Shown here: in pieces, positions 33 to 38,520 of the stretch
Numbering within the stretch: position 1 is the first letter of the stretch
How the letters are laid out: every line of letters starts with the position of its first letter
Source of the DNA: a virus
DNA: 38,895 bases
Virus record (IMG/VR): IMGVR_UViG_3300028388_001251
Location: 1-38,895 of that record
Reading direction: 5' to 3' (one strand)
The notes under the pieces: generated by a model
What the model was told of the DNA's origin: nothing
Seen by the model: the letters and a program-made list of their open reading frames with translations, nothing else
Database searches by the model: none
Translations under genes and position numbers: made by a program

Positions 33-533
33 TGTGAAAGCGCGTTTGAGCCCCGACGGAGGGTAAAATCGCGCAAATCGCTAGACAAAATTGCTGCGCG
101 TAGTACCACTAGACAAAATTAGGGGTCAATTTTGTCTAGCCTCCGCCGTTGATTTATAAGGAGTTTTTTTTGAGCTAGACAAAAATCGCGATTTTTCGAG
201 GGTAGGTAAACATTTTTTTATACGCCGGTGTGGCCCCTCACCCCTCCGACAGACAAAAGAAAAAAGGCCCGAAAAGTCTATCCATATCGTTTGTCTAGTC
301 TAAAAAAAAGGAAAAACGCCCAGCTTCTCCCAGCAAATCAACAACTTACGAGCTAGACATAACAATCTACATTAAAAAATTTTTGTCTAGTAAATTTGAA
401 AACTCCTTGCAAATCAATGACTTGGCGCTAGACAAAATTCTCGATTTCCAAATATTTTTGTCTAGTAGCCCCCCGTCGGCGTTTGTCTAGCTTTGTCTAG
501 CCTGTCGGCTTGGTAGTCCCGTTGTGAAAGCGC
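33..533. repeat. Direct repeat TGTGAAAGCGC flanking the iteron array
   Basis: The 11-mer TGTGAAAGCGC occurs at 33-43 and again at 523-533, near the two ends of the CTAGACAAAA array. The surrounding bases also agree partly (GCTGTGAAAGCGC against GTTGTGAAAGCGC). It may mark the borders of the control region or be a second protein-binding site. No function can be read from sequence alone. Confidence 0.4.
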
Positions 534-550
534 CCGGCTACTAGACAAAA
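81..550. repeat. Iteron array of CTAGACAAAA repeats, candidate replication origin or multi-site operator
   Basis: Eleven near-identical copies of CTAGACAAAA lie here. Plus-orientation copies start at 81, 109, 175, 428 and 541. Inverted copies (TTTTGTCTAG or one mismatch) end at 139, 298, 390, 465, 490 and 500. Two decayed copies lie near 250 and 353. The copies at 109-120 and 128-139 form a perfect inverted repeat with a 7-base centre. A longer unit (CTCC, GCAAATCAA, ACTT, GCTAGAC) is present at 327-358 and 403-433 and partly inverted at 148-164. The stretch is AT-rich and has no gene. Arrays like this bind initiators or repressors; which one applies here is inference. Confidence 0.7.
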
Positions 551-594: not shown

Positions 595-623
595 TTGACA
601 TAAGCATTGTACTGGTGTATAAT
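595..623 (+). promoter_or_regulatory. Consensus sigma-70 promoter
   Basis: TTGACA (595-600) and TATAAT (618-623) both match the consensus perfectly and are separated by the optimal 17 bases. Transcription should begin near 630 and run right into the leader and early genes. It is the only perfect promoter I noticed in the window. It sits at the end of the iteron array, as expected for an early promoter read by unmodified host RNA polymerase. Confidence 0.85.
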
Positions 624-639
624 GACCTCTCAGGTCATT
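621..639. promoter_or_regulatory. Perfect 19-bp palindromic operator over the early promoter
   Basis: AATGACCT-CTC-AGGTCATT has two exactly complementary 8-base arms. It begins inside the -10 box and covers the expected transcription start, the classic position for a repressor. The repressor is not identified. Alternatively the palindrome forms the 5' hairpin of the transcript. Confidence 0.6.
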
Positions 640-713
640 GATAATCATGACAGCCTCCAGCTACCCGCTCGGTAGCGCGGGGGTCGGCTAGAGCCAAGAC
701 AGGTAGCGGTACT

Positions 714-734
714 TTTGTGACAGGTGGTCACAAA
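714..734. promoter_or_regulatory. Early-region palindrome, copy 1
   Basis: TTTGTGAC-AGGTG-GTCACAAA, both arms perfect. It lies about 85 bases downstream of the predicted start of the main early promoter, inside the leader, not next to a gene start. Confidence 0.7.
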
Positions 735-943
735 CCCGGAAACAGGTTGGGGACGCGCCACGGCGCGGAGCACAGACGGCAGATCGCACATTCCCCCGCG
801 GTCGAAGAAGCCCAGCTCACCCCAGCTACTACCTGCAAGGCCAGCGTAGGCACAGCGCCCTGCGCACCGACCCCTGCCATCCGACGCGCATACGGCACGG
901 CACCACCTGATAGGACGGCTTCGCATCCGTCCGAAGCGTCACC

Positions 944-1017
944 GGTATCTGCACCGCTGTGTCACTGCCTTTTACAGGCACGTCGGCCGACAACCGACCA
1001 CAGATACCCCGACGTGC
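944..1017 (+). ncRNA. Candidate structured RNA element (possible pseudoknot)
   Basis: Two long perfect complementarities interlock. GGTATCTG (944-951) pairs with CAGATACC (1001-1008), and GCACGTCGG (978-986) pairs with CCGACGTGC (1009-1017). The right arms are adjacent, as in an H-type pseudoknot with stacked helices. Local hairpins TGCCT-TTTAC-AGGCA (966-980) and GTCGG/CCGAC (982-998) compete with the second helix, so the element could switch between two folds. No known riboswitch class is recognised. Confidence 0.45.
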
Positions 1018-1187
1018 ACCTTTGAGTGATAGCGCCCACCCGGAGTCTGCTGCACAGGATTACTTACCTGTACTGGCGGATTGCGGTAACCCACCGGCGC
1101 CGTACTGGGCTCTCGCAGATTCTGGTGCTGGCATCCGCATTGAAACGACGGCCTGAGGACCTTTACGTCCTGCTTACGCAATAGACG

Positions 1188-1208
1188 TTTGTGACACCAC
1201 GTCACAAA
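1188..1208. promoter_or_regulatory. Early-region palindrome, copy 2
   Basis: TTTGTGAC-ACCAC-GTCACAAA, perfect arms. It is about 210 bases upstream of the ATPase start, with the hairpin at 1286-1322 in between. Its centre is identical to that of copy 7 (7063-7083). Confidence 0.7.
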
Positions 1209-1285
1209 GCACACCGTCGGAGTATTCCTTGACCAACAACAAGTGGCACACAAGTCTGCGAACACTTAATAGATTCGATTACTAC

Positions 1286-1322
1286 AGCCCGGCCAGATGA
1301 ACCATATCTGCGTCGGGCTTTC
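1286..1322 (+). terminator. Terminator-like hairpin before the ATPase gene
   Basis: AGCCCG (1286-1291) pairs with CGGGCT (1314-1319), and inside it CAGAT (1294-1298) pairs with ATCTG (1306-1310). A short TTT run follows. It would end transcripts from the 595-623 promoter after about 0.7 kb, or act as an attenuator. The short T run makes termination efficiency uncertain. Confidence 0.5.
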
Positions 1323-1415
1323 CTGTATGTGCGTTAGGCGCACACTGACGAGGCCGTACTCAGGCCGAAACAGGGCCGACCAACTACTTATCAATAGCCC
1401 AAGGAGGGCACCAAC

Positions 1416-2504
1416 ATGTCTGACACATCAATCACTGACAACGGCATCCAGAAGATCAACGTCGACCAAATCTCAGACCAGCTCGAGCTGGCGTGGGCCG
1501 TCGGCTGGGCGACCATCCTCTGGGGACTGCCGGGCATCGGCAAGTCGGCTGGGGTAAAGGAATTCGCCCGGAAGATAGACGCCATCCTCGTCGACATCCG
1601 GCTGAGCATGTACCAGTCCGTCGACCTGCGTGGCTTGCCCGACCTCGACGCTGACCTACCCGTCACCGTGTGGAAGATGGCCGCGACCCTGCCCTTCAAG
1701 GGCAACCCGATGTTCGCTGAGGCAGAGAAGAACAACACGCCCATAGTGCTGTTCCTCGACGAGATTCTCCACGCCGTCGGGCCTGTGCAGGCCGCGTCGT
1801 TCCAACTGCTGCACCCCGAAGATCGTGGGGTGGGCGAGTTTGAGCTGATCGACTCCGTCATCGTGGTGGCTGCGTCCAACATGCGCACCCATCGCAGCGG
1901 CGCCGGTGAGATGTACTCGGCGCAGGCCAACCGCCTGATGCACTACGAGGTCATGTCCTCGCAACGTGGATTCCTCGTGCACGCTGAGCAGCGTGAGATG
2001 TCTCCCTACGTCATCGCGTTCCTCAACTTCCGCCCCGAGTACACCAACATGAGCGAGAAGGCCATCAAGGCCAACGCCAAGGCGTTCCCGACCGAGCGTG
2101 TGTGGGAGGGTGTGAGCGACGTGTTGCGTGTAGCGAAGAACCCGACCGTGCGTCGGCGGGGCCTCGCCTCCCTGCTGGGCACTGGCGTGGCGGCCGAGTT
2201 CGAGGCGTTCATCGAGATGTGCGAGGACCTGCCCAAGCCATCGCAGATCATCGCCGACCCCGAGGGCACCCCGGTGCCGGACATCACCCGCCGTGACGTG
2301 CTGTGCGCTACAGCAAACATGTGCGCCCGCAAGATTGACAACACGACAGCCGAGGCGTTCGTGACCTACCTGCGCCGGATGCCGATGGAGTACCAAGTGA
2401 TGGCGCTGGTCACCATCAACAACGCGCCCAAGACTGCGGGTCTGGTCATCACCAGCGATGCCGTGGGCGACTTCAACCATGAGCTGTCCGACCAGCTCTT
2501 CTGA
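1416..2504 (+). CDS. MoxR/CobS-like AAA+ ATPase
   Basis: This 362-residue protein is an AAA+ ATPase of the MoxR type, a chaperone-like motor that usually works with a partner carrying a VWA domain. Visible motifs are Walker A GLPGIGKS (37-44), Walker B VLFLDE (111-116), a sensor-1 asparagine in VVAASN (150-155) and a likely arginine finger near R173. The start is set by a strong AAGGAGG site nine bases ahead. The second gene downstream encodes a protein with a metallopeptidase-like and a VWA domain, the expected partner, so the three genes at 1416-4860 form a module. In phages such pairs are early genes of poorly known function; remodelling of a host or phage complex is a plausible role. The family call is firm, the target unknown. 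Confidence 0.88.
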   Translation: MSDTSITDNGIQKINVDQISDQLELAWAVGWATILWGLPGIGKSAGVKEFARKIDAILVDIRLSMYQSVDLRGLPDLDADLPVTVWKMAATLPFKGNPMFAEAEKNNTPIVLFLDEILHAVGPVQAASFQLLHPEDRGVGEFELIDSVIVVAASNMRTHRSGAGEMYSAQANRLMHYEVMSSQRGFLVHAEQREMSPYVIAFLNFRPEYTNMSEKAIKANAKAFPTERVWEGVSDVLRVAKNPTVRRRGLASLLGTGVAAEFEAFIEMCEDLPKPSQIIADPEGTPVPDITRRDVLCATANMCARKIDNTTAEAFVTYLRRMPMEYQVMALVTINNAPKTAGLVITSDAVGDFNHELSDQLF

Positions 2505-3482: not shown

Positions 3483-3503
3483 TCTGTGACACCTTGTCAC
3501 AAA
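3483..3503. promoter_or_regulatory. Early-region palindrome, copy 4
   Basis: TCTGTGAC-ACCTT-GTCACAAA, with one mismatch in the left arm. It starts 10 bases after the previous stop codon and ends 25 bases before the ATG at 3529. Unlike most copies it is not followed by CTACTTAC. Confidence 0.7.
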
Positions 3504-4868: not shown

Positions 4869-4888
4869 GCCCCGTTTTGTGACGGGGC
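4869..4888 (+). other. GCCCCGT/ACGGGGC hairpin overlapping palindrome copy 5
   Basis: GCCCCGT (4869-4875) pairs with ACGGGGC (4882-4888) around a 6-base loop and competes with the palindrome at 4876-4896, as near 2520. Confidence 0.55.
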
Positions 4889-4896
4889 GTCACAAA
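4876..4896. promoter_or_regulatory. Early-region palindrome, copy 5
   Basis: TTTGTGAC-GGGGC-GTCACAAA, perfect arms. It ends 21 bases before the ATG at 4918, followed by CTACTTAC (4898-4905) and GGAG. There is no room for a separate promoter between the palindrome and the gene. Confidence 0.75.
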
Positions 4897-5733: not shown

Positions 5734-5754
5734 GCCCCGTCTTTGTGACGGGGC
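5734..5754 (+). other. GCCCCGTC/GACGGGGC hairpin overlapping palindrome copy 6
   Basis: GCCCCGTC (5734-5741) pairs with GACGGGGC (5747-5754) around a 5-base loop. The stem is one pair longer than at the other two sites. It excludes the palindrome hairpin at 5742-5762. Confidence 0.55.
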
Positions 5755-5762
5755 ATCACAAA
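5742..5762. promoter_or_regulatory. Early-region palindrome, copy 6
   Basis: TTTGTGAC-GGGGC-ATCACAAA, with one mismatch in the right arm. It ends 23 bases before the ATG at 5786 and is followed directly by CTACTTAC (5763-5770). Confidence 0.7.
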
Positions 5763-7062: not shown

Positions 7063-7083
7063 TTTGTGACACCACGTCACAAA
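7063..7083. promoter_or_regulatory. Early-region palindrome, copy 7
   Basis: TTTGTGAC-ACCAC-GTCACAAA, perfect arms, identical to copy 2 including the centre. It begins right after the preceding stop codon and ends 25 bases before the ATG at 7109, followed by TTACTTAC and AGGAG. It is the last copy in the window. Confidence 0.75.
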
Positions 7084-9648: not shown

Positions 9649-9932
9649 TGGGTAACTCCAATTTCATCATCGAAGATTCAAAGCCGCTACCACCAAAGCG
9701 CAAGCCGAAGTACCCCTTCGCTGCAATGGAGGTCGGCCAGTCGTTCCAGATACCCATCACGGACGCCGACGTGGAAGAGCATGGTGATGAGTCCACTGCA
9801 TTGGCCCGGGTGCGCAGTGCTGTTTCGTCCAGCGCCGCGGCGTTCAACCGTCAGGGTCTGGGCAGGAAGATCGTCGTACGAAAGACCGGCGAGCGCTCTC
9901 TGCGCTGCTGGTGTGTGCCGGCCGACTACTGA
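9648..9932 (+). CDS. Small conserved-type phage protein before the polymerase
   Basis: A 94-residue protein. A short polar N-terminus leads to the segment KYPFAAMEVGQSFQIP, then a helical stretch and a basic beta C-terminus (GRKIVVRKTGERSLRCWCV). Proteins of this shape occur near phage replication genes and may bind nucleic acid, judging by the basic C-terminus; that is inference. Start ATG 9648 overlaps the previous stop, and its own stop overlaps the polymerase start (TGATG). Confidence 0.65.
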   Translation: MGNSNFIIEDSKPLPPKRKPKYPFAAMEVGQSFQIPITDADVEEHGDESTALARVRSAVSSSAAAFNRQGLGRKIVVRKTGERSLRCWCVPADY

Positions 9933-12784
9933 TGGCATGGGAAGCGTTCGACGTCGAGACAGACGGCGAGCTGCGGGAGTACGCCCTGCAGCCGTGGCGA
10001 GTGAAGGACCGTCAAGCATGGCTGACCTCTTGGTCGGTGTCATCGAACGAAGGCAACCGGGTGACTTTCGCGCCGGAGCACCCTCGGGATACAGCCAACC
10101 TGTTGCGTCCTTTGGTAGAGCGTTGGCTCGACGAGAAGACCACCGTCTGCCTCTGGAACGGCGTGTTCGATGTGTCGTGGCTCTATGCCTATGGGTTCGC
10201 CGACTGGCTCACGCAGGTCAAGTGGCTCGACGGCATGCTGCTTTGGCGGCACATCGAGAACCAGCCGCAGTACGGGGTCGCCGCCGATAAGCGCACGTCG
10301 TTCGGGCTGAAGCGCGCCGTCGAACATTACCTGCCGCAGTACGCTGGCTATGAGGAAGGCGTTGATTTCAGTGGCAGCGACCCCCTGATGCTGCTGCACT
10401 ACAACGCGTGCGATACATGGTTCACCCGGGCGCTGACTCGTCACTTCTACCTCCAGCTGGAGAAAGAGCCCCGTCGGCTCAAGGCGGCGCTGATCGAGGC
10501 GCACAGCATCCCGCTGATAGCACGAACTGTTTACGAGGGGATGGAGATTGACCACGACGGTCTGGACTCCCTCGACGAGTACCTCCAGCAAACTGCCGCT
10601 GATCGGCTGGCCCAGCTGAAGCCTCATGGTGCCACTGACAAGGTGCTGGCATCGCCGAAGCAACTGTCGGAGCTGCTGTTCGAGGACTGGGGCCTGACCC
10701 CGCTCAAGCACGGCAAGACTGGCCCGAGTACCGACAAGGAAACGCTGGTTGAGCTGGCCCAGAAGGACGACCGGATGCTCCTGATCCACCAGTACCGTGA
10801 GGCCAAGGGCAACCACAAGAAGTTCTGCGTCAACGTGCGCGCCGCGGCTGAGTACAACAACGACGGTCGGGCACACCCCGAGGCCAAGGTGTTCGGCACG
10901 TACACTGGCCGGGTCACTTACGCGTCGGCGCAAGGCAGGAACAAGGATCGCCGGCAAACTGGTTGGGCGCTCCACCAGATGAAGCGTGACCCCGAGTACC
11001 GCCGACTGATCAAGGCCCCCAATGGCTACCAGATAGTGGAGCTGGATGCCGCAGGTCAGGAGTTCCGGTGGATGGCCGAGCTGTCCGGCGACCCGACAAT
11101 GCGAGCGCTGTGCCAGCCCGGCGAGGACCCTCACAGCTACATGGGTGCGCAGGTCGGCAACCTCGAGTACCGCGAAGTGCAGGAAGGCGCCGGCAAGGAC
11201 AAACACCTGAAGGCTATCCGACAGGTGGGCAAGGTGGCGAACCTGTGCGTCGCAGCAGATACGCTGGTGCTGACTGATCGAGGTTACACCCCAATCGTAG
11301 ATGTCACGCTGGCTGATCTGGTGTGGGACGGGGTTGAGTTTGTCCGACACGAGGGCGTTGTGTGCAGCGGTGTACGTCCGGTACTGCAGTATCGTGGCAT
11401 AATTGCTACGCCTGATCATCAGGTGTTGGTCAACGGACAATGGGTGAGCTTGGATGAAGCGGCAAGACATGGTTGGCAAATCGAATCCGCGCTGGGCACG
11501 GGATGGGCGTGTAAAGCGCGGGCAGTTGTTCGGATCATGGGAGGTGTTGTCCGACGAGCCGTTTCCGAAGCACGGAGCACTTTACGTTCTGGCTCGGTGC
11601 TCATGCTCGACCGAGCGGGAGGTGAGCCTGCGTTCTCTGGAGACAGGCAAGTCCAGTCAGTGCAAAAGCTGCGCTGTAAGGGGCAGGCACACCCGCACAG
11701 GACATCTGATCGTGAAGGATGCACGACTGAGGCGCCTGCAGAAGCGAACGAACGACTGGTTCCAGCGGTGCAACAACCCCAACTCTCAATCCTATCGCAA
11801 CTATGGGGCGCGTGGCATCGAGTGCCGTTTCGAGTCGGTCGCTGCTTGCGTGACCTATGTGTTGGAGAACTTACCCCACGACACCTATCTTGGCGTGGAC
11901 ATCGACAGGATCGACAACAACGGGCACTACGAACCCGGGAATCTGCGTCTGGTTTCTCGGGCGCAGAACCTGCGCAACACAAGGCGCACTACGCATGTGC
12001 TGTGGCGGGGCAGGCAAATACTTTTGCAGGACTGGGCGGAGAACCCCTACGCTCTGACCACAGCGGGGCGCTATGTCGCGCAGGGAATGACCGGCGAAGC
12101 GATTTTGCAGAAGGCTCGTCAGGCCGTGCAGGAGAAGCGCAAAGGCTGGACGCAGATTCAAGAACGGTTGAGCCAGTCTACGACATCGTAAACTGCGGCC
12201 CACGAACACGATTCGCAGCCAACGGAGTGATTGTCCACAACTCACTCCAGTTCCGCACCAGTGCGCCACGCCTGCTGTCGGCGGCGCGGGTCAACCACGG
12301 CATGATGGACATGACTCTGCCGAAGGCAACTCACATCCGCAACACCTACCTCCGGGCGTACCGGGGCGTGCCGGAGTATTGGCAGCGCCAGATCGCGTTC
12401 CTTACAGCCAACAACTATGTGAAAACGCTGGCAGGCAGGAAGGTGGTGGTTCCGCCCCGGCTGCAGTCAATGTTCGAGTGGTCGACGCAGTCTACGAGCA
12501 TCAACTTTCCTGTACAGGGCACCGGCGGCGATCAGAAGTACCTAGCCATGTCGGTCATCCGACCACTGCTGCTGCAGCTCGATGCGATCTTCCTGTTCGA
12601 CCTTCACGACGGCCTGTACTTCCTCGTCCCTGACGCTGCGGTCGACGAGTTCATCACGAAAGCCAAGTACCTGTTCGACAACCTGCCCTACGAAAAAGCG
12701 TGGGGCATCATCCCGAGTATCCCACTTCCGTGGGACGTAAAGGTAGGCCCCACTTGGGGCACTATGGAGGAGCTGGACCTATGA
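9932..12784 (+). CDS. Family A DNA polymerase interrupted by an intein
   Basis: Replicative DNA polymerase of the Pol I family, 950 residues as translated and 618 after removal of the 332-residue intein. The 3'-5' exonuclease domain is complete: D7-V-E9, D80 and Y157-N-A-C-D161 (DEDDy). Polymerase motif A is D372-A-A-G-Q-E-F-R379. Motif B reads R430, K434-V-A-N-L438, then the intein (439-770), then S771-L-Q-F. Motif C is H892-D893-G894, with glycine where most family members have glutamate. L438 aligns with E. coli Pol I Phe762, so this is a Leu762-type enzyme. No 5'-3' exonuclease domain. Activity should depend on protein splicing. The start overlaps the previous stop (TGATG). Forms the replication core with the primase-helicase at 18916. 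Confidence 0.93.
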   Translation: MAWEAFDVETDGELREYALQPWRVKDRQAWLTSWSVSSNEGNRVTFAPEHPRDTANLLRPLVERWLDEKTTVCLWNGVFDVSWLYAYGFADWLTQVKWLDGMLLWRHIENQPQYGVAADKRTSFGLKRAVEHYLPQYAGYEEGVDFSGSDPLMLLHYNACDTWFTRALTRHFYLQLEKEPRRLKAALIEAHSIPLIARTVYEGMEIDHDGLDSLDEYLQQTAADRLAQLKPHGATDKVLASPKQLSELLFEDWGLTPLKHGKTGPSTDKETLVELAQKDDRMLLIHQYREAKGNHKKFCVNVRAAAEYNNDGRAHPEAKVFGTYTGRVTYASAQGRNKDRRQTGWALHQMKRDPEYRRLIKAPNGYQIVELDAAGQEFRWMAELSGDPTMRALCQPGEDPHSYMGAQVGNLEYREVQEGAGKDKHLKAIRQVGKVANLCVAADTLVLTDRGYTPIVDVTLADLVWDGVEFVRHEGVVCSGVRPVLQYRGIIATPDHQVLVNGQWVSLDEAARHGWQIESALGTGWACKARAVVRIMGGVVRRAVSEARSTLRSGSVLMLDRAGGEPAFSGDRQVQSVQKLRCKGQAHPHRTSDREGCTTEAPAEANERLVPAVQQPQLSILSQLWGAWHRVPFRVGRCLRDLCVGELTPRHLSWRGHRQDRQQRALRTRESASGFSGAEPAQHKAHYACAVAGQANTFAGLGGEPLRSDHSGALCRAGNDRRSDFAEGSSGRAGEAQRLDADSRTVEPVYDIVNCGPRTRFAANGVIVHNSLQFRTSAPRLLSAARVNHGMMDMTLPKATHIRNTYLRAYRGVPEYWQRQIAFLTANNYVKTLAGRKVVVPPRLQSMFEWSTQSTSINFPVQGTGGDQKYLAMSVIRPLLLQLDAIFLFDLHDGLYFLVPDAAVDEFITKAKYLFDNLPYEKAWGIIPSIPLPWDVKVGPTWGTMEELDL
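11246..12241 (+). mobile_element. Intein in polymerase motif B, with a nested endonuclease gene
   Basis: The inserted 332 codons start with Cys (TGC 11246-11248) in CVAADTLVLTDRGYTPIVDV (block A), have a block B TPDHQVLV with its T and H, and end with block F/G VYDIV...ANGVIVHN, followed by extein Ser. All residues needed for splicing are present. The splice domains span only about the first 75 and last 27 residues. Between them the polymerase frame is open but reads as low-quality, R-, A- and G-rich sequence, because the true coding frame there is the HNH gene at 11454-12191, one base out of frame. The insertion falls just after the residue matching Pol I 762, a known intein hot spot in the catalytic centre. 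Confidence 0.9.
11454..12191 (+). CDS. HNH homing endonuclease nested out of frame in the intein
   Basis: A 245-residue protein in the +1 frame relative to the polymerase. It carries a treble-clef-like zinc site (C49, C51, C70, C73), the conserved RCNNPN...YRNYGARGI segment (105-121) typical of phage HNH homing endonucleases, an HNH core DIDRIDNNGHYEPGN (149-163) followed by a QN-x4-R helix, and a C-terminal NUMOD-like helix-turn-helix (LQDWAENPYALTTAGRY). It has its own ATG with a weak GGTGAG ahead and its own TAA, inside the codons for intein block F. The enzyme should cut intein-free polymerase genes and drive spread of the element. The shadow frame must stay open for the polymerase to be made. 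Confidence 0.88.
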   Translation: MKRQDMVGKSNPRWARDGRVKRGQLFGSWEVLSDEPFPKHGALYVLARCSCSTEREVSLRSLETGKSSQCKSCAVRGRHTRTGHLIVKDARLRRLQKRTNDWFQRCNNPNSQSYRNYGARGIECRFESVAACVTYVLENLPHDTYLGVDIDRIDNNGHYEPGNLRLVSRAQNLRNTRRTTHVLWRGRQILLQDWAENPYALTTAGRYVAQGMTGEAILQKARQAVQEKRKGWTQIQERLSQSTTS

Positions 12785-31973: not shown

Positions 31974-32192
31974 TTACTTGGCCGCAGGCTTAGCTGCAGG
32001 CTTGGGCTCAGTTTCGGCAGGCTTGGGCTCAGTTTCGGCAGGCTTGGGCGCAGTTTCAGCCCCTGCGCCATCGCCGACGGTGGGCATGTCTGCCTCGTCT
32101 GCGGTATCGAACTCAGTATAGCCCTTGAGGCCCTTCAGCTGCTCGGCCGGCAAGAAAAGTTTGCCGTTCTTGTCTCGAAGCATTTTCGCCAT
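31974..32192 (-). CDS. Small protein with TEPKPAE repeats
   Basis: A 72-residue protein. The first half (MAKMLRDKNGKLFLPAEQLKG) is folded-looking; the second half is a low-complexity tail of repeats KPAETEP followed by KPAAKPAAK, encoded by a 21-bp tandem repeat. GGAGGAAA precedes ATG 32192. Placed between the capsid terminator and the adaptor gene. It could be a minor head protein; function unknown. Confidence 0.65.
   Translation of the reverse strand: MAKMLRDKNGKLFLPAEQLKGLKGYTEFDTADEADMPTVGDGAGAETAPKPAETEPKPAETEPKPAAKPAAK
31999..32061. repeat. Three 21-bp tandem repeats
   Basis: Copies at 31999-32019 and 32020-32040 are identical; the third (32041-32061) differs at a few bases. Because the unit is seven codons, copy number can change without shifting the frame. 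It encodes the TEPKPAE repeats. Confidence 0.85.
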
Positions 32193-34444: not shown

Positions 34445-36498
34445 CCCATCATCCCCGACGGGCTGGCGCTATCCGCGGCCTGCGCGCCGTTTGCGAGCTG
34501 GTCCCCTCCCCCCACAGGGGCGGCGGGCTGCTGAGGCTGGGCCGGAGGCTGCCCGGGCTGCTGAGGCTGGGCCGGAGGCTGCCCGGGCTGCTGAGCCATC
34601 TGCGGAGCGATCTGAGACTCCGGCGGCACGATCTTGTTGACGTCCATGCCCAGCCCCTTGGCGATCTCGCGGAGGACCGACGCCCTTCCTTGCGGGCCGA
34701 CGATCTGGCTGTCGACAGGGTTGTTCGTGATCTGGAGAAACTCGTTGCGGCGCATGCGCAAGGTCTCGAGCTGCATCAGGCTGGCCACACCACGCACCAT
34801 GACCTGCGAGTCGCCTTTGATGCTGTCATCATCGGAGTAGATCATGTTGTGGTCAAACAGCTGCGTAAGCAAAGGCCCCATGACCTTGTTGTCGATGCCT
34901 TGGACGATAGACTTCAGACCCTTGTTCGCGCCATCGAGCAGCATCGACAGCCCAGTGGCTGTGCGACCGGGGCCAGACACCTTGTCCGAACCACTCATGT
35001 ACCGAGGAATCAGCGAGAAGTCATCGGCCAGTGCGTAGAACTTCTCCAGCACCATGAGTAGCTCCTGCACGTTGGTGTTCGGCTGGAAGAAGTCAATCGG
35101 CTTCTCGGTCTTGTTGCTGAACTGCCCGTCGATCACCTGCCATATCTTCCACGGGTACATGTTGGTGATGTCTTCGCCAGCCGGCAGCCGGTCTGTGTTG
35201 ACCACTGCTTGTGGGCCAGAGGCAATCGCCATGTTGTTGCACAGCGAGCGGATCGCGGCATTGCTCACACCCTGAACGTCGGCCAGCACATCGTGCATGC
35301 TGTAGCCCCAGAACTCCCCGGGGATGTTCTCGTAGCAGTCCTTGTAATACGGCCGACGTCCCAGAGGGTCATCGTTGAGCACCGCCTTGATGACGTAGTG
35401 GTCGATCAGGTAAACGGTTGCCTCGTAATACTGCTGCTCGTCCGAAATGCCCTCCATGCCCCACTCTTTGAGGTCCCGGCCAACCACCGGGCCGTGGAAG
35501 ATCAGCATGTCGATCAGCCCACTCCGCGGGGAGTCGCGGTGGGAGTCATGGTCAGGGCCAAGGTCAGCCTCGGAAACCCAGCGGTAGCCGCCGTCTGCCG
35601 ACCGGTCAAGCACAGAACGAATCGCAGCCTCGCTGTAGCCGTCCACCCCGATCAGGGCATACAGGTCTGAGTTGGTGAGCGTGCTGTACTCAATCAGGTA
35701 GCCGTCCTGCGGGTTGTCGACGCCGGGAGCCGGGAAGATGTTGTTCGGGTCGACCGCCTCAAAATCCATGACGACCCGACGCTGAACCTCTGGGATGTAG
35801 ACGCCATCGACCTCAGACCATGTGACACGATCCTTGTGCCGGAAGATCGGCCCCTTGAGCACAGCGCCCGGGTAGGTCACGTAGTACGCGAGGAAGTCTG
35901 CGAACGCCGTAGCGAAGCCTCCCTCCTCCAGCTGGTCGGCAATCAGCGCCTCCATGCGCTCGGCCCGGCGCTCAGCCAAGTCCTTCTTGCGCAGCCGCTC
36001 CATGTCGAGCCGGTCACCCATCATTTGCGCTGCCGAGCTGGGGTCTACGTTCTGGCCTGTCGCAGCCATCTGCGCGAGGGTGTAACTGATCTCCTCCTTC
36101 AGCCGTTCGAGGTCCTCTTCTGGCAAGTCCGGGGACGGGGTAGCCCCGATAGACCACGGCCTCTCACCGTCGGCGAGGAAAACGTCCTTCAGCCACGACT
36201 CGAGCACCCGACTCTTGTTGGCTATGATGCGAGCATACTCAGTAGAAGCGCCGGTCTTCTGAATCTCGGCCAGCTTCTGCGGGGTGTACTCTCCGCGGCG
36301 AGCGTAAGCTGCCTCTCGGAAACGACCCTCAGACTCGCGCTTGTGGTCGCGCGCTTCGTGCCAGCAGTCACGAACGTACCGGGCTAGGCGCTCAATGAAC
36401 TCTTCGGGGTACGCCGCGGTATCCGACGTATCTGCATCTTGCTCTGCCAGCACTTCCTGCGGAGACGCCAGCTTCACCAACCCAATCGCACTCGCCAT
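34441..36498 (-). CDS. Portal protein
   Basis: A 685-residue portal protein, the ring at one capsid vertex through which DNA enters and leaves. Seen are an N-terminal helical part with EFIERLARYVRDCWHEARDH, the region STEYARIIANKSRVLESWLK, the central FLAYYVTYPGAVLKGPIFRH segment, and GEFWGYSMHDVLADVQGVSN near 400. The C-terminus is Q- and P-rich (QQPGQPPAQPQQPGQPP), built by a 30-bp tandem repeat. Order portal, small protein, scaffold, capsid is typical. AAAGAGA precedes the ATG. Confidence 0.92.
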   Translation of the reverse strand: MASAIGLVKLASPQEVLAEQDADTSDTAAYPEEFIERLARYVRDCWHEARDHKRESEGRFREAAYARRGEYTPQKLAEIQKTGASTEYARIIANKSRVLESWLKDVFLADGERPWSIGATPSPDLPEEDLERLKEEISYTLAQMAATGQNVDPSSAAQMMGDRLDMERLRKKDLAERRAERMEALIADQLEEGGFATAFADFLAYYVTYPGAVLKGPIFRHKDRVTWSEVDGVYIPEVQRRVVMDFEAVDPNNIFPAPGVDNPQDGYLIEYSTLTNSDLYALIGVDGYSEAAIRSVLDRSADGGYRWVSEADLGPDHDSHRDSPRSGLIDMLIFHGPVVGRDLKEWGMEGISDEQQYYEATVYLIDHYVIKAVLNDDPLGRRPYYKDCYENIPGEFWGYSMHDVLADVQGVSNAAIRSLCNNMAIASGPQAVVNTDRLPAGEDITNMYPWKIWQVIDGQFSNKTEKPIDFFQPNTNVQELLMVLEKFYALADDFSLIPRYMSGSDKVSGPGRTATGLSMLLDGANKGLKSIVQGIDNKVMGPLLTQLFDHNMIYSDDDSIKGDSQVMVRGVASLMQLETLRMRRNEFLQITNNPVDSQIVGPQGRASVLREIAKGLGMDVNKIVPPESQIAPQMAQQPGQPPAQPQQPGQPPAQPQQPAAPVGGGDQLANGAQAADSASPSGMMG
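34531..34590. repeat. Two perfect 30-bp tandem repeats in the portal gene
   Basis: Bases 34531-34560 and 34561-34590 are identical. They encode ten residues each of the Q- and P-rich C-terminal tail of the portal protein. An expandable, in-frame repeat. Confidence 0.9.
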
Positions 36499-36504
36499 AT
36501 CTCT

Positions 36505-38520
36505 TTACCCTGTTGTCGCTGGCTTAACTACGTAGCTACAGTCCTTCGAGAACTGCTTGCGGTCTTGCACGGATGCTGACACCTGCCCGGACTCGTTTCC
36601 AGATACTCGATGTGATGCACTACCGCTGGCACCCAACGAACTCTGGAAGATCGACGACGCTGACTGTGACAACGCACCTGCAGCACGCAGCTGTGCCTCC
36701 TGATACGCTACATCCAATCTCGCTGTTTGCACAGCTGTATCTGCTGCAAGCCCATCCTCTGCAGTCTTGAGCTGCGCATCTGCTATGGCGATACTGTTCT
36801 GCGCATCGCGGAAGTCAATGTTGGCTGCATTATACTGCCCGGCGTAACGCGCACCTTCCGCACTTGCCCGGCCATAGTCACGAGCGACAGAGTCGGATGC
36901 ACTAAGCGCTCGAAGCACATTTGTCAGGTAGTCTCTCTGCGTGCTCACAGCGGCTCGAAAGCTCTGCAGCTCCGCGTCCATGGCACCTGTGCTGGCAGCT
37001 AGATATTGGCGGTACGCCGACGTGCGATCACCCTCCATAGCCCAAAGCCTACGGTACGCATCAAACTTCTCTTGGTTGACCGCCACCTGCGACGCGGACA
37101 CAGCGACCTCACTCTCGTAGGCTTGGGTCGAGGAGTCGAACCACTCGTAGTATTTGCTGTATGCGCCAATCGCCTCTTTGAAAGATGCGATGTTCTGCTG
37201 GGCGACACCAAGATTCGCCACAACACCCCGCAGCTGTGACTCGTAGACCTCTAGCGGCAGCACCTGCTGCTCTGCGTCCAGCGCCCGCACCTGCGATGCA
37301 ATGCGCAGGGTTCTAGCGTCGGCAGAGAACATATCGGTCTGCGCCTTGAACCGCGCCAACGCCGCGTTGGTGTATTCAATCTCCCCGGAGATCGCTTCGT
37401 TCTGCTGGGCGACTGCTCGAACGTATTGGTTGTACGCCCGGACTTGTTCCGAGACTATCTGCTCCTGCGCACGATAGTTCGACAGCACCATGTTGTACGC
37501 AGCTTCTGCGAGCTTGAGGTTGTAAGCGTAAACCTTGATGTTCTGCCGGATGTAGCGCATGAACAGCGCGAAGTGGTACCGCTCGATCTTGACCGACTCG
37601 GCGATGGCGTTTACTACTACCTCCTGAGACTTTTCGTAGACCTCATTGCGGACCGTCTCAATCGCGTCCTCTCGTTCACGAGCCTCGTTCTCGTAGACAT
37701 CAATCTGCGCTGCCTCTGCTGGGCCAAAAGAGTCTGAGAAGTTCCGCTTGGCCGCGTCTTCCATAATGGCGTCAATGGCTTTTTTGACATCACGATCTAC
37801 CCTAGAAGTGTCTCCGCGGTACAGCTCGCCCTGCAGGGGTATCCACTGATCCAGCAGACCCGATCCCTGCATCAGGCCATGTATGTGAGCACGCAGCGCA
37901 GCGTCGTCCTCGTACCGCAGCTCTGGCTGGAAATCGAGCCGCTCCACATCGACCTCAAGACTCTCCGGCAGCAGGTCGCTGACGTCCAGAGGGCTGAGGT
38001 CTGTCGCCTGAAAAGACTCGGGGATGATAGTGGGCAGCGCCGGCCTCTCCCCCATCACAATCTTCGGGGGCTTCACGTACAGGTCGCTAGGGGGGTCTGG
38101 GATCGTAACGCCGGCGATAGTGGGGTAATCCAAAGGAGGCGACGGCGCCCTCGCGTCCCCGGCCAACTCCGGGCCTTCTGAAGTCTGGTACGTGATGTCA
38201 GGGATCGGTGCCGAGTCAAACTCGTAGTCGATGACCGACTGGACAGCCTTGTACGTCGCCGCTTCCAGTGTGGGTAGCCCCCCTGAAAGAGCAGGGGGTG
38301 TGCCCGGGGCGAAGTTGGGCTCCTCCAGCGAAGCCTCCGCCTGATCAGGCGTGTCGATCTCGAAGACCACCGAACCAATCTCCGGTGCGGGGACCTTCGC
38401 CACCCCCTTTATCTCCTCACGCATCTCACCCGCCGCACGAATCTTGTTGTACAGCGGGCTGCCCTCGCTCAGCGCGAAGTTTGCGACGCCTGCGTAAAGA
38501 TACTGTAAGCAGTCAGCCAT
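36505..38520 (-). CDS. Unknown helical structural protein
   Basis: A 671-residue protein. The first 200 residues are rich in P, D and E and probably extended; from about 250 to 600 it is a long run of helices with heptad-like spacing and many A, Q, Y and E residues (EIEYTNAALARFKAQTDMFS). The end is rich in serine and glycine. No catalytic motif or membrane segment. Its place directly before the portal gene, in the same direction, argues for a virion or assembly role, for example a tail or internal helical protein. GAGGT lies ahead of ATG 38520. Confidence 0.72.
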   Translation of the reverse strand: MADCLQYLYAGVANFALSEGSPLYNKIRAAGEMREEIKGVAKVPAPEIGSVVFEIDTPDQAEASLEEPNFAPGTPPALSGGLPTLEAATYKAVQSVIDYEFDSAPIPDITYQTSEGPELAGDARAPSPPLDYPTIAGVTIPDPPSDLYVKPPKIVMGERPALPTIIPESFQATDLSPLDVSDLLPESLEVDVERLDFQPELRYEDDAALRAHIHGLMQGSGLLDQWIPLQGELYRGDTSRVDRDVKKAIDAIMEDAAKRNFSDSFGPAEAAQIDVYENEAREREDAIETVRNEVYEKSQEVVVNAIAESVKIERYHFALFMRYIRQNIKVYAYNLKLAEAAYNMVLSNYRAQEQIVSEQVRAYNQYVRAVAQQNEAISGEIEYTNAALARFKAQTDMFSADARTLRIASQVRALDAEQQVLPLEVYESQLRGVVANLGVAQQNIASFKEAIGAYSKYYEWFDSSTQAYESEVAVSASQVAVNQEKFDAYRRLWAMEGDRTSAYRQYLAASTGAMDAELQSFRAAVSTQRDYLTNVLRALSASDSVARDYGRASAEGARYAGQYNAANIDFRDAQNSIAIADAQLKTAEDGLAADTAVQTARLDVAYQEAQLRAAGALSQSASSIFQSSLGASGSASHRVSGNESGQVSASVQDRKQFSKDCSYVVKPATTG

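Follow-up and report, generated by a model that had tools for sequence, protein, structure and literature searches.

A candidate structured RNA and a predicted type III hammerhead ribozyme ahead of the early operon of a Rhizobium phage TM3_14A-like podovirus

Introduction

What is the role of a 0.7 kb stretch without coding signal that separates a consensus promoter from the first gene of an early phage operon? We addressed this question for a locus of the IMG/VR virus record IMGVR_UViG_3300028388_001251, using the whole 38.9 kb stretch of DNA (38,895 nucleotides, hereafter the window). A first-pass annotation, made without database searches, had proposed that the promoter drives an independent non-coding RNA that ends at an intrinsic terminator and resembles the large GOLLD and ROOL RNAs in size and setting, with no motif seen that would place it in either class. 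The features on which our analyses rest are collected in Table 1.

Table 1. Features of the early locus, in window coordinates
Feature	Position	Strand	Basis or remark
Repeat cluster CTAGACAAA/TTTGTCTAG, 12 copies, six per orientation	81..549	.	just upstream of promoter
Sigma-70 promoter TTGACA-17-TATAAT within ACTTGACATAAG	595..623	+	12/12 positions match
Candidate structured non-coding RNA, ~698 nt after predicted cleavage	630..1327	+	fold controls, helix count, codon test
5' domain closed by long-range helix 680-687/867-874 (GGGGTCGG/CCGACCCC), inner helix 700-706/829-835	680..874	+	in minimum-energy folds
Palindrome/hairpin TTTGTGAC-N5-GTCACAAA, first copy inside RNA	714..734	+
Predicted pseudoknot, perfect helices 944-951/1001-1008 (8 bp) and 978-986/1009-1017 (9 bp)	944..1017	+
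Palindrome/hairpin TTTGTGAC-N5-GTCACAAA, second copy inside RNA	1188..1208	+
14-pair 3' hairpin, then only TTT	1286..1319	+
Predicted type III hammerhead ribozyme	1321..1375	+	RF00008 match, unforced minimum-energy fold
Hammerhead stem III 1321-1326/1370-1375; stem I 1328-1334/1338-1344; stem II 1352-1355/1363-1366		+
Hammerhead core CUGACGA 1345-1351; GAAA 1367-1370; GUA triplet 1325-1327		+
Ribosome-binding hairpin GCCC-AAGGA-GGGC	1397..1409	+	repeated before next gene, 2566-2578
MoxR/AAA ATPase (phrog_1297), first early-operon gene	1416..2504	+

Results

The phage and its relatives

The window is a podovirus fragment. Its capsid protein and the one of Rhizobium phage RHph_TM3_14A share 47% identity, and the same gene order is found in both: ATPase, DUF2201 metallopeptidase, DNA polymerase (polA), exonuclease, SNF2 helicase and DUF927 primase. 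Judging by these genes, the phage is a Rhizobium-phage-TM3_14A-like podovirus. An N4-like label, prompted by the ATPase, was dropped, as the capsid and gene order point to the TM3_14A group. Closer relatives were found among the IMG/VR contigs, namely L139/L172 and L161, with 37% identity in the ATPase and 43-52% in the polymerase.

A consensus promoter ahead of a stretch without coding signal

The sigma-70 promoter recognized in the first-pass annotation is indeed perfect, and no other perfect match exists in the window. Transcription is expected to start near position 630. Since this single strong promoter lies before the RNA region, transcripts of the ATPase operon should run through that region, with weaker promoters, or promoters to the left of the window, as possible additional sources. 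The first-pass annotation had held that transcripts merely reading through into the ATPase mRNA would speak against a distinct RNA. Read-through is expected here, the only strong promoter serving the operon, and therefore does not refute the RNA.

With a codon model trained on 16 genes of the window, the ORFs on both strands of the 630-1320 region yielded log-odds between -0.05 and -0.33, compared with +0.07 to +0.34 for the 16 genes. The GC content of the region is flat over the three codon positions, while most genes show values of ~0.6/0.4/0.8; overall, its GC content resembles that of the rest of the genome. Furthermore, a search with the 717-1025 ORF returned no related sequence, and on this ground and that of codon usage we rejected conserved coding in this stretch. 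These results agree with the earlier view that it holds no credible gene.

Strand-specific, long-range structure

We compared the predicted folding energy of the region (691 nt) with those of shuffled sequences. The + strand gave a z-score of -4.56 (-3.2 in another run) and the reverse complement -1.13, and 18 control stretches of 690 nt each ranged from -1.63 to +1.76. Folding of local 150-nt windows is mostly ordinary, so the structure signal is a long-range one. Seven perfect helices of at least 8 bp are found within spans of 250 nt, compared with 1.8 +/- 1.3 in shuffled sequences; two of the seven are repeated palindromes. The predicted pseudoknot is the best of the window on the + strand and was equalled in 27 of 5000 shuffles of the region. 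By themselves, the fold z-scores represent moderate evidence, and the fold is modelled on one sequence. The coding test and the fold controls together lend good support to a non-coding RNA unit of about 0.7 kb with long-range pairing, as first annotated, and the 'many hairpins' of that description were not borne out by the local windows.

Repeats and palindromes in and around the RNA region

The CTAGACAAA/TTTGTCTAG repeats all lie in the cluster upstream of the promoter (12 copies, 11 of them exact), with 13 matches in the window where 3.8 are expected by chance. The cluster occupies an AT-rich stretch just before the promoter and might represent an origin or a regulator array. The repeats are likely protein-binding or origin-type sites, outside the RNA.

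The TTTGTGAC-N5-GTCACAAA palindrome occurs in seven copies in the window, for 0.1 expected. Beyond the two copies inside the RNA, it is found in gaps between early genes at 2526-2546, 3483-3503, 4876-4896, 5742-5762 and 7063-7083, with a partial copy at 7-15. The same palindrome is present in L139 (six copies with one constant centre) and L142 (five copies with another constant centre), and L161 has a version with a shorter spacer. In this phage group, it probably serves as a site resembling an operator or stoperator.

These elements raise the question of whether the region might act as DNA, i.e. as an origin, a regulator-binding array or a packaging signal, with an incidental RNA fold. The dense upstream repeats and the two shared palindromes inside the region would fit such a role. 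In addition, two of the seven palindrome copies are altered in one arm with no compensating change in the other, which is what a protein-binding DNA site would be expected to show. Strand-specific structure, a genome-like GC content and a ribozyme placed exactly at the boundary all argue against a DNA-level role, which we regard as very improbable.

A strong hairpin that makes a poor terminator

The region ends with the 14-pair hairpin, which was initially described as a hairpin with a T run at 1286-1322. The hairpin is strong, as stated, but the run consists of TTT followed by CCTGT (tail UUUCCUGU/TTTCCTGT), and our terminator scan did not list it. Of the two components of an intrinsic terminator, a GC-rich hairpin and a U tract, the former is thus present and the latter absent, making this a weak terminator at best.

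The strength of the hairpin is what favours an independent non-coding RNA ending by termination at 1286-1322. Against it stand the short T run and the result of the terminator scan. Moreover, no other strong promoter is available for the ATPase operon, and a ribozyme located past a working terminator would rarely be transcribed. Termination at this site therefore appears extremely unlikely, and that part of the first-pass annotation, the 3' end, did not stand. The hairpin is more likely a 3'-end protector of a released RNA.

A predicted type III hammerhead next to the hairpin

Directly downstream of the hairpin, we identified a feature that the first-pass annotation had overlooked, a type III hammerhead. 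A search of positions 1-1500 against Rfam at a relaxed threshold matched 1320-1376 to RF00008 with a score of 40 bits and an E value of 8e-7 for these 1.5 kb, the covariance model being aligned over its full length (positions 1-54 of 54). No conserved core base is missing, an NUH triplet precedes stem I, and the three stems surround the core, with stems I and II closed by loops and stem III open. Furthermore, the ribozyme fold is the unforced minimum-energy structure of both 1320-1376 (-21.9 kcal/mol) and 1286-1400. Cleavage is predicted at the GUA triplet, between A1327 and U1328, 88 nt before the ATPase start codon, and the hammerhead ends 40 nt before that codon.

The score is lower than the Rfam gathering score of 48.5. 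However, seven other type III hammerheads of phage contigs with intact cores score between 31 and 45 bits and all fall short of 48.5 as well, so this value is a database cut-off that fails to set phage members apart, and not a structural criterion. The GUA triplet, in place of the commoner GUC, is found in 7 of the 27 type III phage hammerheads that we parsed from an IMG/VR pattern scan.

In the global fold of 630-1415, other pairings rival the ribozyme and are favoured by 2.8 kcal/mol. In addition, 1149-1160 could pair with 1356-1367, which includes a strand of stem II. The upstream RNA might thus sense a ligand or a protein and control cleavage through such a pairing. Eleven of the 12 positions are complementary, with a duplex energy of -18.6 kcal/mol, and the hammerhead does not dominate the global ensemble. 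Nevertheless, this anti-ribozyme pairing has a probability of only ~0.01 in the ensemble, and by a rough estimate such a match has a ~10% chance of occurring at random across the whole hammerhead. A regulated ribozyme of this kind seems very unlikely to us.

No second ribozyme was detected by the Rfam searches at the 5' end of the RNA, where it would enable excision or circularization. Tandem hammerheads, two or three in number, do exist in other phage contigs: L117 (reverse strand, 1916, 2387 and 3881), L034 (reverse strand, 3860 and 4169) and L049. In some of them, stem III directly abuts the next start codon, and the pairs could excise short RNAs.

Comparison with related phages and RNA families

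RHph_TM3_14A, L139/L172 and L161 share the gene content and order of the window, and L139 and L161 also share its promoter type and palindromes. Unlike the window, none of these relatives has the RNA unit or a convincing hammerhead. In L139 and L161, the promoter, with TTGACATAAG, lies 83 nt before the ATPase gene and is followed by the TTTGTGAC/GTCACAAA palindrome, with no insert; ACTTGACATAAG or CTTGACATAAG is found again at these promoters. In L171, a promoter-like site precedes the ATPase gene by 24 nt. Given the 83-nt distance and the lack of an insert in L139 and L161, the present phage carries the RNA unit as an extra element. It appears that either the RNA and its ribozyme were inserted between a promoter and a gene that are both older, or the relatives have lost the unit. 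Hammerheads were also sought in 18 other related or motif-sharing records; the sole hammerhead-like match, in L139, is weak (12.8 bits, E 0.28), and the rest gave none.

We found no homologues of the RNA in named phages, plasmids, the genomes of the relatives or the fetched loci, beyond the short palindromes, in searches that may have lacked near-identical records. The IMG/VR scans covered selected patterns and peptides only; those with the pseudoknot, or with the core and stem II of this hammerhead, gave no match. Given this outcome, the RNA sequence could be poorly constrained. Long ORF-poor stretches before a hammerhead also occur in L019, L109, L035, L024, L073, L078, L117 and L082, and those that we read hold coding genes between cistrons or unrelated AT-rich sequence. 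Among the matches listed, none of at least 13 nt antisense to other phage mRNAs was found except the shared palindrome.

The Infernal search of Rfam suggested in the first-pass annotation retrieved the type III hammerhead and no large-RNA family. In the whole window, searched with 4227 families, the hammerhead has an E value of 2e-5 and is accompanied by a single further match, weak and snoRNA-like (E 0.41); no GOLLD or ROOL match was obtained at the gathering threshold. At E values up to 5, positions 1-1500 match no family besides the hammerhead. GOLLD and ROOL are large phage RNAs found near tRNA islands (PMC12286853). Like them, the present RNA is large, structured and predicted to be pseudoknotted, these RNAs ranging from hundreds of nucleotides to over 800 nt (PMC12286853). 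It differs from them by the lack of an Rfam match and of a credible tRNA nearby, by its position as the first element of an early operon, by its predicted release by a hammerhead and by the lack of detected homologues, so membership of either class is not supported. The sole tRNA call in the window, an ARAGORN selenocysteine tRNA at 37120-37213, lies inside a long ORF on the same strand (36505-38520) and is probably false.

Discussion

We propose, with a probability of roughly 60%, that a single early transcript is cut by the hammerhead into a stable, probably trans-acting RNA and a protected operon mRNA. Transcription from the promoter would yield one RNA starting with the structured 0.7 kb, followed by the ATPase-to-replication operon. 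The hammerhead would cut the nascent transcript after A1327. The 5' product would be a ~698-nt RNA with a 5' stem-loop, internal long-range helices, the pseudoknot and the strong 3' hairpin, ending with an 8-nt tail past the hairpin and a 2',3'-cyclic phosphate, and is expected to resist 3' exonucleases. The 3' product would be the operon mRNA with an 88-nt leader, similar to those of L139 and L161 (about 77 nt from the assumed start site). It would retain most of the hammerhead and begin with a 5'-OH immediately at a 7-bp hairpin, an end structure that should withstand decay pathways acting from the 5' end. One strong early promoter would thus generate two separately stable products, an abundant non-coding RNA and a protected mRNA. 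In this model, self-cleavage by the hammerhead explains the 3' end of the RNA better than an intrinsic terminator does.

Alternatively, the 0.7 kb might be a long cis-acting leader that controls transcription or translation of the ATPase genes, with the hammerhead trimming the 5' end of the mRNA and the severed leader being waste. A precedent is found in the haloviruses HF1 and HF2, whose hammerhead lies 13 nt before the start codon of an early helicase gene, with the 5' end of the mRNA mapped within three nucleotides of the cut; it trims that early mRNA with no known upstream RNA product (PMC3088659). Hammerheads in other phage contigs are also commonly located ~35-60 nt before a gene and just after another. 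Nevertheless, L139 and L161 do without such a leader, the 5' product seems to be shielded by the 14-pair hairpin that immediately precedes the cut, and the structure spans the whole 690 nt. We deem a mere leader unlikely, though not remote. We favour a trans-acting role for the released RNA because it matches no known family, is located early and would have protected ends.

The HF1/HF2 ribozyme likewise lies in an early operon leader, a short distance ahead of the first gene (helicase there, ATPase here), but no large structured upstream non-coding RNA was described in that system and its ribozyme is a salt-adapted core variant (PMC3088659). The present hammerhead shares with RF00008 type III members the core, the stems, including the open stem III, and the NUH triplet, and phage examples score alike; its triplet and its score set it apart. 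Other hammerheads are found in viroid-like RNA or between two coding genes, for instance separating adjacent genes of one transcript in L117, whereas this one is flanked by a non-coding RNA on one side and an mRNA on the other. Phage leaders with hammerheads are already known; one that would release a large orphan RNA looks new.

Hammerheads are common in phages, where their roles are mostly unexplained. A location exactly at the junction of a large structured RNA with an early mRNA suggests a concrete, testable role, in which one cut would both mature the RNA and set the 5' end of the mRNA. The RNA might also represent a new class of large phage RNAs, both its ends being predicted to the nucleotide or nearly so. 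More tentatively, and as a reading that we consider less likely than not, an RNA of this class might be produced before any other during infection, and probably in the largest amount, with an in-line hammerhead performing its maturation; a single promoter would then provide a trans-acting RNA as well as the mRNA for early replication.

Other features of the window

Two successive genes, the ATPase gene and the next one, are each preceded by a GCCC/GGGC hairpin whose loop contains the ribosome-binding sequence AAGGA. Such start hairpins recall the start-associated repeats of some actinobacterial phages.

The DNA polymerase (9911-12784) harbours an insert of ~325 residues (about 447-771), which starts with NLC-VAADTLVLTDRG, ends with VIVHN-S and is missing at that place from several relatives. 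The insert seems to be an intein; a Pfam search of the polymerase detected no intein domain. Lastly, short tandem repeats are present at 31996-32058 (21 nt units) and, within the portal gene, at 34524-34583 (30 nt units).
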